Virus record (IMG/VR): IMGVR_UViG_3300009152_000144
Coordinates: 1 to 30,100 of that record
Length of the DNA: 30,100 nt
Source: a virus
Strand: one strand, 5' to 3'
The stretch's first letter is position 1, and each line of letters starts with the position of its first letter. Shown piece after piece: positions 21,394-30,100 of this stretch. The notes beneath the pieces are model-generated. The model was not told where the DNA came from and made no database searches. It worked only from the letters and a program-made list of their open reading frames with translations. The position numbers and the translations under genes were made by a program.

Positions 21394-21710
21394 TTTGGTA
21401 CAAATTTTATCTGGGCGAATACCTTACCCACACCACGCACCTGTCGGATGCCGAGGACTTGGCCTACCGCAGACTGTTGGATTTGTACTACATCAGCGAA
21501 AAGCCAATCCCTTTGGATACCGAAGCGGTTGCCAGAAAAATCAAACTTGACTTGGACATCACCGAGATTGTCTTGGAAGAATTCTTCGTCAAGGGCGTTG
21601 ACGGCTATCGCAATGGCCGCTGTGACGCAGAAATTGCCCGGTACACCAAACAGGTGGCCGTCAACAAAGAGTTAGGCAAACTTGGCGGCAGGCCCAAAAA
21701 AGCACTATGA
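21390..21710 (+). CDS. Short DUF1376 protein
   Basis: The protein has 106 residues and starts by ATGA overlap. It carries the DUF1376 pattern: WYKFYLGEYLTHTTHLSDAE, then DLAYRRLLDLYYISEKPIPL and a basic end (GKLGGRPKKAL). DUF1376 is the N-terminal part of phage replication proteins. This copy has only that domain and stops, whereas the next gene has it plus a C-terminal part. It is probably a paralogue that keeps only the DNA-binding half. Confidence 0.8.
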   Translation: MIWYKFYLGEYLTHTTHLSDAEDLAYRRLLDLYYISEKPIPLDTEAVARKIKLDLDITEIVLEEFFVKGVDGYRNGRCDAEIARYTKQVAVNKELGKLGGRPKKAL

Positions 21711-21721
21711 TAGAATTGGGC

Positions 21722-21784
21722 ATGGCTACCCTTAGCGGGGGAAAAGGCGATTCGTTACCGCCCTGCCAGACCCACCCACAGTAA
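21722..21784 (+). other. 101-bp gap between DUF1376 genes with a 20-codon frame and inverted repeats
   Basis: The space 21711-21811 holds a 20-codon frame (MATLSGGKGDSLPPCQTHPQ) with no ribosome site, a GGCG/CGCC hairpin (21746-21762) and a CGTTAC/GTAACG inverted repeat (21753-21758 / 21781-21786). It could be a translated peptide, a structured leader or part of a replication-control site. I cannot choose between these. Confidence 0.3.
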
Positions 21785-21811
21785 CGGCTGACCTAGAACG
21801 TAAGGTTGTCA

Positions 21812-22579: not shown

Positions 22580-22812
22580 GTTTTGCTAAACCTGAACCAA
22601 AAGACCGTGATGACGGCCCAAGCCTGCTTTGCAGCGTGCCGGGGTGCGCCTCCCGCTGGAGCGTGAAGCTGGAAGGGCAGATGCCCAAATGCAGCTTTCA
22701 CCAGTGGCAGCGCCCCGAGTATGGTGCTACGAAGACCTACAAGGAATATTTGGCAGACAAAAACAATCCAGCCAAAACGGTTGCCTCGTGGTTGCCCAAG
22801 GAGCCGTGGTGA
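22576..22812 (+). CDS. Small zinc-finger protein
   Basis: The protein has 78 residues. C19 and C24 (LCSVPGCASRW) with C39 and H42 (PKCSFHQW) make a CCCH-type zinc site; the rest is basic and polar. Proteins of this kind often follow DUF1376 genes in phages, which suggests a helper in replication. It overlaps both neighbours by 4 bases. Confidence 0.7.
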   Translation: MSFAKPEPKDRDDGPSLLCSVPGCASRWSVKLEGQMPKCSFHQWQRPEYGATKTYKEYLADKNNPAKTVASWLPKEPW

Positions 22813-23750
22813 ACAAAATTGAATTTGGCGATTGCCGAGAAACCATGCGCCGCTGGAAAGAGCAGGGCATCAAAGCGCAGACTTGCGTGACCAGCCCACC
22901 CTACTACGGTCTGAGAGACTACGGACATGAGGGGCAGCTTGGCCTTGAGGAAACACCAGAGCAGTACATCACGGCAATGGTCGAAGTGTTCCGCTGCGTG
23001 TGGGATGTGCTGGAGGACGATGGGACGCTGTGGCTGAACATCGGAGATAGTTACAACGGGTCAGGCGGTCAAGGCACAAAACCTAACATCATGTCAAAAG
23101 AAGCGGCAGAAGGGCGTGGCGGCAAGGCAATAAAAATTGACGGCATAAAACCCAAAGACCTAATTGGCATCCCGTGGATGATGGCCTTTGCACTACGTGC
23201 TGATGGTTGGTATCTGCGCCAAGACATCATCTGGCACAAGCCCAACCCCATGCCTGAGTCGGTGCAAGACCGATGCACTAAGGCGCATGAGTACATCTTC
23301 CTGATGAGCAAGTCGCAGAAGTATTACTACGATGCGGATGCGATAAAAGAAGAAGCAAACGAAGATTCTGGATTTGCTAAACAAAGAGCAAAAGGAATTG
23401 ATACATGGAAATACAACAATACGTCAGAAAGAATTGCTCAAACAGGTCAAACAATTGAGGCATCAACTTTTGGTGAAATTGGCAAAAGAAACAAACGCAG
23501 CGTCTGGACAGTGACTACCAAGCCTTACGCTGGCGCTCACTTTGCCGTTTTTCCGTCTCATCTGATTGAACCCTGTATCCTGGCTGGCGCACCAGTGGGA
23601 GGCATTGTCCTTGACCCATTTATGGGCAGCGGCACAACTGCACAGGTAGCGCAGAACCTTGGGCGGCAATACATTGGATGTGAATTGAATCCAGACTATT
23701 GCCAACTGCAAAACATTCGCACTGCACAACAATCACTGGACTTTATATGA
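22809..23750 (+). CDS. DNA methyltransferase, beta-class (N4-C or N6-A)
   Basis: I chose the GTG at 22809, overlapping the previous stop; the frame is open further upstream but overlaps that gene. The product has 313 residues. Motif IV is TSPPYYGLRDYG (28-39) and the SAM-binding motif I, VLDPFMGSGTT, is near the end (267-277), so catalytic before binding motif: the beta order. SPPY is found in both N4-cytosine and N6-adenine enzymes, so the base is open. No restriction partner is present. A protective or regulatory role on phage DNA is likely. Confidence 0.88.
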   Translation: MNKIEFGDCRETMRRWKEQGIKAQTCVTSPPYYGLRDYGHEGQLGLEETPEQYITAMVEVFRCVWDVLEDDGTLWLNIGDSYNGSGGQGTKPNIMSKEAAEGRGGKAIKIDGIKPKDLIGIPWMMAFALRADGWYLRQDIIWHKPNPMPESVQDRCTKAHEYIFLMSKSQKYYYDADAIKEEANEDSGFAKQRAKGIDTWKYNNTSERIAQTGQTIEASTFGEIGKRNKRSVWTVTTKPYAGAHFAVFPSHLIEPCILAGAPVGGIVLDPFMGSGTTAQVAQNLGRQYIGCELNPDYCQLQNIRTAQQSLDFI

Positions 23751-26114: not shown

Positions 26115-26399
26115 ATGAACAACGACCTCAACCTCAACAACATCGACACACTCGGCTCTTTGTTGGCTCAAATCAAAGACCTGACTGCACAGGCAGATGC
26201 CATCAAAGACGGCATCAAAGAGTCTGCATCCGCAGGCGGTGCAACGGTCGTCGAAGGTGTCTTGTTCAAGGCTACCTACAGCGAGTCCAACAAGTCAATA
26301 TTCGACAAGGAAGCCTTTATCAAAGTGCATGGCGCAACGGCCTACGCTACCTTCACCAAGGTGTCTGCTGTGTTCAGCGTCAAGGTCACCAGCCGCTAA
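26115..26399 (+). CDS. 94-residue conserved phage protein
   Basis: Helical N-terminus (LGSLLAQIKDLTAQADAIKD), then a beta part (FKATYSESNKSIFDKEAF) and an end KVSAVFSVKVTSR. The pattern of a helix pair then Y-S-E-S-N and a VTSR end is one I know as a common phage protein of unknown role. Start with CAGCGAA before the ATG, as at 27562. A strong hairpin lies just after its stop. Confidence 0.8.
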   Translation: MNNDLNLNNIDTLGSLLAQIKDLTAQADAIKDGIKESASAGGATVVEGVLFKATYSESNKSIFDKEAFIKVHGATAYATFTKVSAVFSVKVTSR

Positions 26400-26406
26400 A
26401 ACCAAC

Positions 26407-26420
26407 GGGGCTTCGGCCCC
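26407..26420 (+). promoter_or_regulatory. UUCG-capped hairpin after a short gene
   Basis: A perfect GGGGC-TTCG-GCCCC stem-loop with the extra-stable UUCG tetraloop lies 7 bases after the stop at 26399. No T-run follows, so it is unlikely to be a normal terminator. It may protect or process the mRNA, or partly slow transcription. Confidence 0.6.
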
Positions 26421-26454
26421 AACAACCAACCCCAACCACAAACGAAAGAGAATC

Positions 26455-26760
26455 ATGAAAATCAAAACCACAATCCACGTTCACTATCAAAAACATTCTT
26501 GGGAAAAGGAGGGAGCTTTTAAAGTTTTTTATTGCCAACTTGACGATTCTGAGTACCGTACTTACGTTGGCCCGCAGGAAATTGAGATTGATGTCCCTGA
26601 AGACTACGACCCCCGCGCACAGCAGGTGGCGGCGCTGGAGGCGCTGAAACAGAAGGTCATGGCCGACTATCAGAAGTCTGTCACCGATATCAACGACCGC
26701 ATCAGCAAGCTGATGGCACTGGAGTACGAAGCAACAGTAGCGGAAGAAAGCAAATCATGA
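26455..26760 (+). CDS. 101-residue protein with C-terminal module shared with next gene
   Basis: I chose the ATG at 26455 with AAAGAGA upstream. The N-terminus (MKIKTTIHVHYQKHSWEKEG) is beta-like. Residues about 55-95 read QQVAALEALKQKVMADYQKS, then VTDINDRISKLMALEYEA, a coiled coil almost repeated in the next gene. The function is unknown; the shared part suggests self- or cross-pairing. Confidence 0.7.
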   Translation: MKIKTTIHVHYQKHSWEKEGAFKVFYCQLDDSEYRTYVGPQEIEIDVPEDYDPRAQQVAALEALKQKVMADYQKSVTDINDRISKLMALEYEATVAEESKS

Positions 26761-26969
26761 AATTTCAAAACACTTTTTGCAGCCAGTGCGGCGGCGAGTT
26801 TGGCCCCGGTGATAACGGCTACAGCCACTGCCGCAACCATCACCCAAAGGCACAACAAATTGCAGCGTTGAAAGCCCAGAAACAAAAAGTCGTGGCCGAC
26901 TATCAGAAGTCGGTCACAGACATCAACAGCCAAATCAGCAAACTTCAGGCACTGGAGTACACAGCATGA
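26757..26969 (+). CDS. 70-residue zinc-finger plus coiled-coil protein
   Basis: Starts by ATGA overlap. Residues 1-29 carry CSQCGGEF and SHCRNHHPK, likely a Zn finger (C8, C11, C25, H28/H29). The rest (QQIAALKAQKQKVVADYQKS, then VTDINSQISKLQALEYTA) is the same module as in the gene before. A duplication joined to a different N-terminal domain explains both genes. Confidence 0.7.
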   Translation: MKFQNTFCSQCGGEFGPGDNGYSHCRNHHPKAQQIAALKAQKQKVVADYQKSVTDINSQISKLQALEYTA

Positions 26970-29672: not shown

Positions 29673-29760
29673 CTGGCCCTTCCCCACCAAACTACCCCCG
29701 GCTTTGCCAAGCAAGCCAATCCCGTTCAATCCAAACAATCATGAGGAGTCGCCGTGGTGA
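29665..29760 (+). CDS. 31-residue Pro/Asn-rich small frame
   Basis: The ATG overlaps the previous gene by 8 bases and its stop overlaps the GTG of the next. MNNWPFPTKLPPALPSKPIP, then FNPNNHEESPW. The overlap chain supports translation; composition (eight Pro) is odd. It may act mainly as a translational link to the next gene. Confidence 0.45.
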   Translation: MNNWPFPTKLPPALPSKPIPFNPNNHEESPW

Positions 29761-29921
29761 AGGAAACATTGCTTGACAAGGTGATTATTGGTACAATGTT
29801 CATTGCCTTTACAGCGTTTTGGGTTTGGGTTCCAAACTTTCTTTTGACCGAAGAAGAGTGCAAGCAACAGACCCCGCAAGCCTTCACAAGTGGCTTGTGT
29901 AACGAACCGAAAGCGAAGTAA
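29757..29921 (+). CDS. 54-residue single-TM protein (GTG start)
   Basis: The GTG overlaps the stop before (GTGA). MKETLLDKVIIGTMFIAF is followed by TAFWVWVPNFLL, one membrane helix at about residues 8-28, then a short outer part with two cysteines (EEECKQQ, SGLCNEP). GAGGAG lies upstream at 29742-29747. It is the last protein gene; the structured RNA region starts 9 bases later. Confidence 0.6.
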   Translation: MKETLLDKVIIGTMFIAFTAFWVWVPNFLLTEEECKQQTPQAFTSGLCNEPKAK

Positions 29922-29930
29922 AACACAATG

Positions 29931-30100
29931 GGTTCCCGGCGAAAGCCGAGAGCCAACACGCATGGGGATTGATGAGAGTGCCAGCAAAGTTCGGTGAGGC
30001 TGGTCGGACGGGCGAGTAACAAGCCCTATACGCCGGGGGGTGGGGATTAAGCCCTGCCACAGTGGTTCGAATCCACCTATCAATGTCCAGCCGTGTTGGT
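29931..30100 (+). ncRNA. Candidate structured RNA with nested long-range stems and a tRNA T-arm-like hairpin
   Basis: No ORF. By eye: hairpin 29931-29954 with CGGC-GAAA-GCCG (GNRA loop) and five more pairs; outer stem CCAACACG (29953-29960) / CGTGTTGG (30092-30099); inner stem ATTGATG (29968-29974) / TATCAAT (30078-30084) extended by GG/CC pairs. Inside lie GCCAGC/GCTGGT (29980-30004), GGGC/GCCC (30010-30026), GGTGGGG/CCCTGCC (30039-30058) and GTGG-TTCGAAT-CCAC (30062-30076), which equals a tRNA T-arm. The inner length, 117 bases, and a lack of a T33 anticodon loop argue against a standard tRNA. It may continue past the window. Confidence 0.55.

Follow-up and report, generated by a model that had tools for sequence, protein, structure and literature searches.

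The 30,100-bp virus record analysed here (the window, at its full length) ends with 179 noncoding bases, preceded by a 55-aa open reading frame with its stop codon at 29919–29921. What kind of element do these bases form? An earlier note on the same DNA had described positions 29931–30100 as a structured RNA built around a mimic of the tRNA T-arm, and had considered a decayed tRNA and a fragment of a larger phage RNA as other possibilities. The seven helices named in that note are all present (Table 1). The RNA is not confined to this stretch, however, as the element runs past position 30100 into a further domain.

Table 1. Features of the noncoding block and a second RNA of the window
Feature	Position	Strand	Remark
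int-alpA RNA (RF02996, 36.4 bits), between two early ORFs	21719..21787	+	Rfam
Noncoding block from the last early ORF to terS	29922..30100	+	runs on beyond the contig end
Hairpin CGGC-GAAA-GCCG, GAAA-capped, before the first domain	29937..29948	+	
Outer 8-bp stem, CCAACACG with CGTGTTGG	29953..29960 with 30092..30099	+	
Left half of the A frame, ACGCATGGGGATTG, docking stem 5′ strand	29958..29971	+	
Inner stem, TGGGGATTG with CAATGTCCA	29963..29971 with 30081..30089	+	one mismatch
A insert, exchangeable domain	29972..30080	+	109 nt
Internal hairpin 1, CCAGC...GCTGG	29980..30003	+	
Internal hairpin 2, GGGC-GAGTAACAA-GCCC	30010..30026	+	without anticodon-loop pattern
Internal hairpin 3, GGTGGGG-ATTAAG-CCCTGCC	30039..30058	+	
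tRNA T-arm-like hairpin, GTGG-TTCGAAT-CCAC	30062..30076	+	stem end 12 nt before the frame end
Right half of the A frame, CAATGTCCAGCCGTGTTGG (consensus CAGTCCCCAGCCGTGTTGG)	30081..30099	+	
Start of domain B, GTTGGT, family b3	30095..30100	+	remainder outside the window, in L003/L004

The noncoding end of the window

A 22-mer from the 3′ side of the feature led to two further contigs of the same phage, which match the window up to its last base, with 99.99% identity across 11,188 bp and 100% across 6,512 bp. In the longer contigs a second noncoding domain follows and then the gene of the terminase small subunit (terS; PF20901, E 6.6e-33), with its ATG 174 nt past position 30100 (L003/L004). Of the two domains, A lies in the window as a whole and B with its first 6 nt, where the contig end truncates the feature; the B domain of this phage comprises 119 nt in all and has CCAAC at its end (L003/L004). 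The two same-phage contigs diverge from base 30101, which may explain why the assembly stopped there.

Folded as a single sequence the feature is modestly above chance, with a minimum free energy (MFE) of −69.8 (z −1.97) that was equalled in 10 of 200 shuffles, and the T-arm hairpin is absent from both its MFE and its centroid fold. ARAGORN found 0 tRNA or tmRNA genes in the window copy and neither RF00005 nor the tmRNA models of Rfam matched it, in agreement with the earlier statement that this is neither an ordinary tRNA nor a tmRNA. The TCCA at 30086–30089, to which the earlier note had pointed in its comparison with a tRNA end, is the 3′ strand of the inner helix and not a CCA tail. By eye, the loop of internal hairpin 1, AAAGTTCGGTGAG, has the look of a tRNA D-loop. 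Weak Rfam matches, to MIR815 on the minus strand of the window and to MS2 and SNORD49 in L003, were taken as chance.

A coding frame through the region was also considered. Minus-strand ORFs at 29739–30083 and 29726–30022 do cross the RNA, but in relatives the entire block is shortened, missing or replaced by another while its flanks stay, and a coding role is therefore rejected. A GAAA-type hairpin similar to that before the first domain is retained in a relative without the element (L070), and hairpins upstream of first A domains (58/142) are exactly as frequent as in the control 60 nt further up (58/142).

Two side observations concern the early block of the window: a DNA methyltransferase ORF lies at 22629–23750 on the + strand (phrog_67, 5.6e-72), and two stretches of 117 bp (26617–26733 and 26850–26966), which are 78% alike and were seen as off-diagonal blastn matches, sit inside the neighbouring early ORFs 26197–26760 and 26757–26969.

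A conserved frame with exchangeable inserts

When relatives were fetched via TerS (the best 80 of 254 loci), the outer sequences of the element were found to recur upstream of terS and the middle was replaced. The 17-mer GTCCCCAGCCGTGTTGG occurs in at least 120 viral stretches, and 118 of the 120 among the matches listed parse with the frame ACGCATGGGGATTG...CAGTCCCCAGCCGTGTTGG; the two without the frame are L084 and L098, and in L098 the match starts at base 62, so that the left half may be lost. Cellular genomes, searched with the exact 17-mer only, gave 9 matches, none of which (0/9) has the left frame half within 160 nt. The order of the repeat is ACGCATGGGGATTG, insert A, CAGTCCCCAGCCGTGTTGGTG, insert B, CACCAACAACC(TAC), followed by ACGCATGGGGATTG and the next insert A, and so on. 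The A docking helix is TGGGGATTG/CAGTCCCCA with the flanks ACG/CGT, the B docking helix is GTTGG(TG)/(CA)CCAAC, and the frame sequence is nearly palindromic. In other copies the part of the outer-stem 5′ strand before ACG is variable (CCAAG, CCATC, TCAAC).

The comparison of homologues bears out the inner stem proposed earlier, as this helix covaries. In 61 copies with this stem unfixed by the search pattern, a set in which the window phage is counted twice and the first 5′ base was fixed by the search in part of the loci, 409 of 427 cells are paired, whereas 2000 partner shuffles gave a mean of 362 and a maximum of 377. In register 403 of 420 cells (96%) pair, as compared to 30–58% when the strands are slid by 1–3, and all seven pairs show two-sided changes in some copy. 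G·U pairs are frequent in this stem (45/61 at one pair), which speaks for RNA rather than single-stranded DNA. The parse by which copies were counted demanded at least 7 of 9 pairs and limited consensus mismatches; because it filtered on pairing it was not used for covariation, and the covariation sets were taken with outside anchors and no pairing filter. Within the inserts, alignments of six module families including b3 contain 3–7 pairs each with two-sided changes, counts which lean towards the predicted structures since these were derived from the same alignments. The inner folding energies are barely under those of shuffles (mean z −0.8 for 80 A and −0.45 for 80 B domains), so that the term compact fold rests on covariation in few families.

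The frame has no match to an Rfam family, and no tandem repeats were called at 29931–30100. A CRISPR-like or simple tandem array was rejected, as the repeats are two alternating stem halves and the inserts recur across loci. Isolated phages and plasmids gave no useful match, with few short matches at E ∼0.5 or worse, and the nearest annotated TerS relative (MW202545, L238) has no array in the 6.5 kb covered.

In total, 214 frame copies were parsed in 162 loci, 195 of them distinct with their flanks. They hold 181 distinct A inserts (24–111 nt) and 146 distinct B inserts, grouped into ∼104 A families (63 singletons) and ∼71 B families (44 singletons), numbers which hinge on the blastn cut-off. 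The version of the A insert seen in the window occurs in this phage only (window, L002, L003/L004). The 146 pairs of neighbouring A and B inserts represent 137 different pairings, with two or more B partner families for 33 A families and two or more A partner families for 25 B families, and the same domain is found in both A and B slots; the cross-slot rows A10/B95 and A22 and A23/B71 were discarded as parsing overlaps, not exchange. Most arrays are short (120 single, 39 double, 4 triple and 1 quadruple, n = 164), and a 13-mer of the frame (at most 1 mismatch) occurs 1–3 times in 17 of 20 long viral records and in none of three records chosen by TerS. Nested slots were observed in L166, L170, L167, L173 (family b1) and L172, where another variable insert, in part of the copies once more with a T-arm, is placed inside B frames such as GAATGCGCAGGCTGATGCGC...GCCGGAGATCAGCACCGGC.

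From these data we conclude that the window feature is one copy of a modular RNA which is found in many phages and in which independently folding domains are chained via the conserved docking helices A and B. The RNA is not built around the T-arm, as this hairpin belongs to one interchangeable insert and most frame copies are devoid of it.

GOLLD is a large structured phage RNA found near tRNAs, and the T-arm together with the near-tRNA geometry at the 3′ side would agree with a fragment of such a known RNA or with a single decayed tRNA. Nevertheless, no tRNA, tmRNA or GOLLD match was obtained, the latter neither in the window nor in L002/L003 or 19 array loci. A conserved, covarying frame with exchangeable contents in the said 118 of 120 listed stretches does not fit a single relic, and the contents of the arrays, in contrast to GOLLD, are hypervariable and modular. 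We regard this explanation as extremely improbable. The manA and wcaG motifs are structured RNAs of cyanophages, manA being located in potential 5′ UTRs (PMC2864571). They differ from the arrays in that each is one conserved motif, and the portion of the report used here describes no domain exchange (PMC2864571). No description of arrays such as these was found in the result listings of literature searches over open-licence papers, which is not proof of absence.

Domains on unrelated helices and turnover of the arrays

Two domains could be followed beyond the frame. Domain a0 is found in both slots, A and B, and no fewer than two other helices carry it as well, GAAGCTG/CAGCTTC and TACGGGAGTTG/CAGCTTCCGTG. 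Its closing helix has at least 9 bp in 22 of 47 contexts versus 2.2 when shuffled; at a threshold of at least 5 bp the count (45/47) is at chance level (42.5 with re-dealt partners, 36.0 shuffled). Domain b0 consists of two hairpins whose loops appear to kiss. In the 34 copies near the frame the central loop–loop pair is A–T in 24, G–C in 9 and another combination in 1, a count that carries less weight because of shared ancestry, and seven further copies are distributed over the A slot (two) and other helices (five).

A scan for b0 alone returned at least 120 stretches with 118 distinct contexts among the matches listed, related phages each being counted. The closing helix reaches at least 9 bp in 92 of these 118 contexts, as compared to 2.5 (max 5) after shuffling of the 3′ flank and to 14.5 for re-dealt partners. 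By a rough rule the helices are B-type in 59 contexts, of another type in 49, A-frame-like in 8 and missing in 2, and the 49 non-B-type helices form 16 groups which share no 6-mer. This grouping replaces a figure of 78 distinct helices, which was dropped because it counts sequence variants of one helix. Two b0 leaders fold far below their shuffles (z −3.5 and −4.7).

The domains thus move from locus to locus, switch between A and B slots and are also placed on unrelated closing helices. We consider it likely that phages share a freely recombining library of probably far more than 100 autonomous RNA domains on standard docking helices, that is, RNA domain shuffling, from which untranslated regions and arrays resembling tRNA operons are built as a noncoding counterpart of protein domain shuffling. 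The exchange would come about by phage recombination across the conserved stems of ∼15–20 nt.

The presence of the arrays also turns over rapidly. The frame is found in 18 of 51 distinct regions upstream of terS. On the TerS tree its presence changes 13 times, with at least 11 changes forced by supported branches, which is barely under the value for shuffled labels (15.0; 76 of 500 as low). Near-identical phages can differ in whether the element is present upstream of terS, and the pairs L071/L070, L075/L076 and L057/L058, the last with more diverged flanks, represent filled and empty sites with matching flanks; one such site has 9-bp direct repeats.

Could the inserts be passive cargo of DNA-level cassettes, with the conserved stems acting as recombination sites in the manner of integron attC sites? 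According to the part of the source used here, integron gene cassettes and attC sites occur in phages and form arrays of inserts separated by imperfect inverted repeats (PMC9892861). Conserved inverted repeats that alternate with variable inserts, copies in tandem and the filled and empty sites, including the one with direct repeats, would all be in agreement with cassettes of this kind. The attC core boxes fail, however (GTTRRRY in 8 of 195, RYYYAAC in 4 of 146), and the covariation is of the RNA type. The G·U pairs, the kissing-loop covariation and the placement of domains at a predicted +1 (see below) also speak for RNA, and since domains sit on unrelated helices as well, the stems are not an obligatory recombination site. 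A cassette mechanism is therefore improbable in our view.

The gene neighbourhood suggests a further possibility, namely a packaging-related RNA or DNA of the pac/cos or pRNA type, given the place before terminase genes. The arrays lie in front of genes that include terS of the Sf6 type and terL with three different best PHROG matches, and also in front of tRNA genes. Against such a function, the frame is missing upstream of terS in 33 of the 51 regions from close relatives, L058 is without it despite a TerS identical to that of the frame-bearing L057, and arrays or b0 also precede DUF5856, DUF6496, primase and regulator genes. A role in packaging is hence very unlikely.

At the same terS-upstream site another recurrent, structured-looking block was noticed, GAGACAAGG...CCTTGATTGGTAT(A/T)CCTATGCCC. 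It occupies or shares the site in L005, L007, L010, L044, L050 and L066, stands behind the array in L043, and is possibly another domain of the library.

tRNA-like domains, transcript position and possible roles

The position of b0 relative to predicted transcription and translation signals might give a hint as to how the domains act. TATAAT (at most 1 mismatch) ends 5–7 nt before the closing helix of b0 in 35 contexts, and a TATAAT-like box is located 3–10 nt before the helix in 39 of 115 (shuffled mean 9.7, max 17). When the −35 and −10 boxes are scored jointly, at most 3 of 12 positions are mismatched in 24 of 114 contexts, 8 of them perfect (shuffled mean 2.4, max 6). Downstream, a Shine-Dalgarno-like motif and a start codon follow within 45 nt in 50 of 115. 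As a sequence pattern, the start of b0 coincides with the +1 expected for a sigma-70-like promoter in roughly one of three contexts, a fraction which is diluted because the filter for copies behind an A domain caught 1 context and many more are visible, and the end of b0 often lies directly before a start codon. Genes that follow b0 leaders (51 listed, 10 examined) encode, among others, Mu-Gam/Pam3 gp33-like proteins (weak Pfam scores; phrog_13900), phrog_1123 proteins and Cro/YdaS-type regulators. Arrays starting with a first A domain have a weak promoter signal, with a TATAAT-like box at −16/−15 in 10 of 142. In mechanical tests, the downstream ORF is on the opposite strand for 42 of 163 arrays and absent for 18, and 18 arrays lie within an ORF of at least 450 nt on either strand. 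In the window phage a promoter-like TACACT box is seen by eye between the array and terS; with this box the early transcript would have the array at its 3′ end, and the array would not be a terS leader.

The best reading, to which we assign a probability of about 0.5, is that the elements are autonomous RNA domains in phage untranslated regions which serve as cis-acting stabilisers or insulators of mRNA. The domains would act as compact folds that shield transcript ends and junctions from host RNases or insulate neighbouring coding regions, and for such a role any sufficiently compact fold could replace another.

On the contrary, ordinary tRNAs in the same arrays point to excised products which act in trans. 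In this case the array would be a precursor similar to a tRNA operon, and the domains would be cut out, would inhibit RNA-binding or defence proteins of the host or serve as decoys or sponges for them, and would become diverse through an arms race. Among the 161 loci scanned with ARAGORN, in which near-identical contigs are each counted, 26 of 27 tRNA calls are within 600 nt of an array, and 16 tRNAs start 7–10 nt behind a CCAAC-like B end. Some closeness is expected as the loci are centred on arrays, and one of the 26 calls (L132, type unassigned) overlaps an A frame. About eight arrays clearly end in an intrinsic terminator (13 program matches in 151, the other five being inside a domain), as would suit a precursor. 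The extreme diversity and the turnover in presence and absence would fit an arms race.

The tRNA-like features of the domains themselves also argue for the trans-acting products. A strict T-arm (TTC[AG][AT]NN loop, 4-bp stem) is present in 11 of 184 A and 10 of 146 B domains (∼6–7%), whereas shuffle controls of 200 rounds had means of 0.7 (A) and 0.8 (B) and maxima of 5 and 4; the description as a structured noncoding phage RNA with a tRNA-type T-arm thus holds beyond the window. In five B copies exactly 7 nt, as many as an acceptor stem has, lie between the T-arm and the domain end, and in 6 of the 11 A copies (three sequence types, window included) it ends 12 nt before the frame end. Five B domains, from the 22 loci scanned, pass the Rfam gathering score for tRNA (L175, L167, L109, L150, L166). 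They have the acceptor stem GUUGGUG/CACCAAC or nearly so, a D-arm and a T-arm, and differ from a tRNA in that the anticodon arm or D-loop is enlarged or replaced (14–83 nt): the anticodon arm is replaced by 42 (L175), 83 (L167) and 53 nt (L109), the region of the anticodon loop is enlarged to 14 nt in L150, and L166 carries a 48-nt insert in the D-loop. Some of the domains are therefore partly descended from tRNA or mimic it.

Most domains, however, are without any feature of a tRNA, and the best-studied one, b0, is often placed like a cis element at predicted transcript starts before start codons. We thus treat excision and action in trans as a possible but tentative alternative, and retain the cis-acting role in untranslated regions as the preferred reading.

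As side observations, the tRNA that most commonly follows directly on an array has the anticodon CAT and was called tRNA-Met, although it could be tRNA-Ile2 (L089, L107, L112, L142, L149, L155, L160, L179, L181, L189, L227), and the T-arm of an A domain at L102:2870–2887 on the minus strand gave an 18-bit fragment match to the tail of tmRNA (threshold 47).

The T4 band RNAs C and D are reportedly stable RNAs of unknown function in phage tRNA clusters. Compared by description only, they resemble the arrays as structured non-tRNA RNAs which adjoin phage tRNA genes, and they differ in that the array domains replace one another on conserved docking stems and are used again in 5′ leaders. If the library of domains is real, the untranslated regions of phages contain a wealth of new RNA folds, whose compatibility at a common stem has already been tested by evolution, so that the folds are separable and can be studied singly. 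It could then be asked whether hypervariable structured phage RNAs protect mRNA, mimic tRNA or block host defence, and natural phages with different or no domains at the same site offer ready-made swap experiments.

The int-alpA RNA of the window phage is likewise a small structured phage RNA with a TATAAT-like box upstream (TATGAT at 21706–21711, TAGAAT at 21711–21716). It belongs to a single fixed family whose model the array domains do not match, and RF02996 has no match within the window array, the copy in Table 1 being the only one in the window. Seven of nine pattern matches are true int-alpA copies and have a TATAAT-like box at a fixed upstream distance; the core matches in L164 and L353 are not int-alpA. 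This RNA may be one more leader-type RNA, though the box is closer than that of b0, such that the predicted +1 falls a few nucleotides inside the RNA. Finally, a second recurrent noncoding stretch was noticed by eye at L003:200–545 on the minus strand, GTTGC(T/C)GTGGAAAG...AGCCGTTACTCATGC...GAGGGCAGTAGTAACGGCTTTTTTG, which has the look of a structured leader with a terminator-like end and of which similar text is present in L188, L094, L023, L099, L194 and L095.
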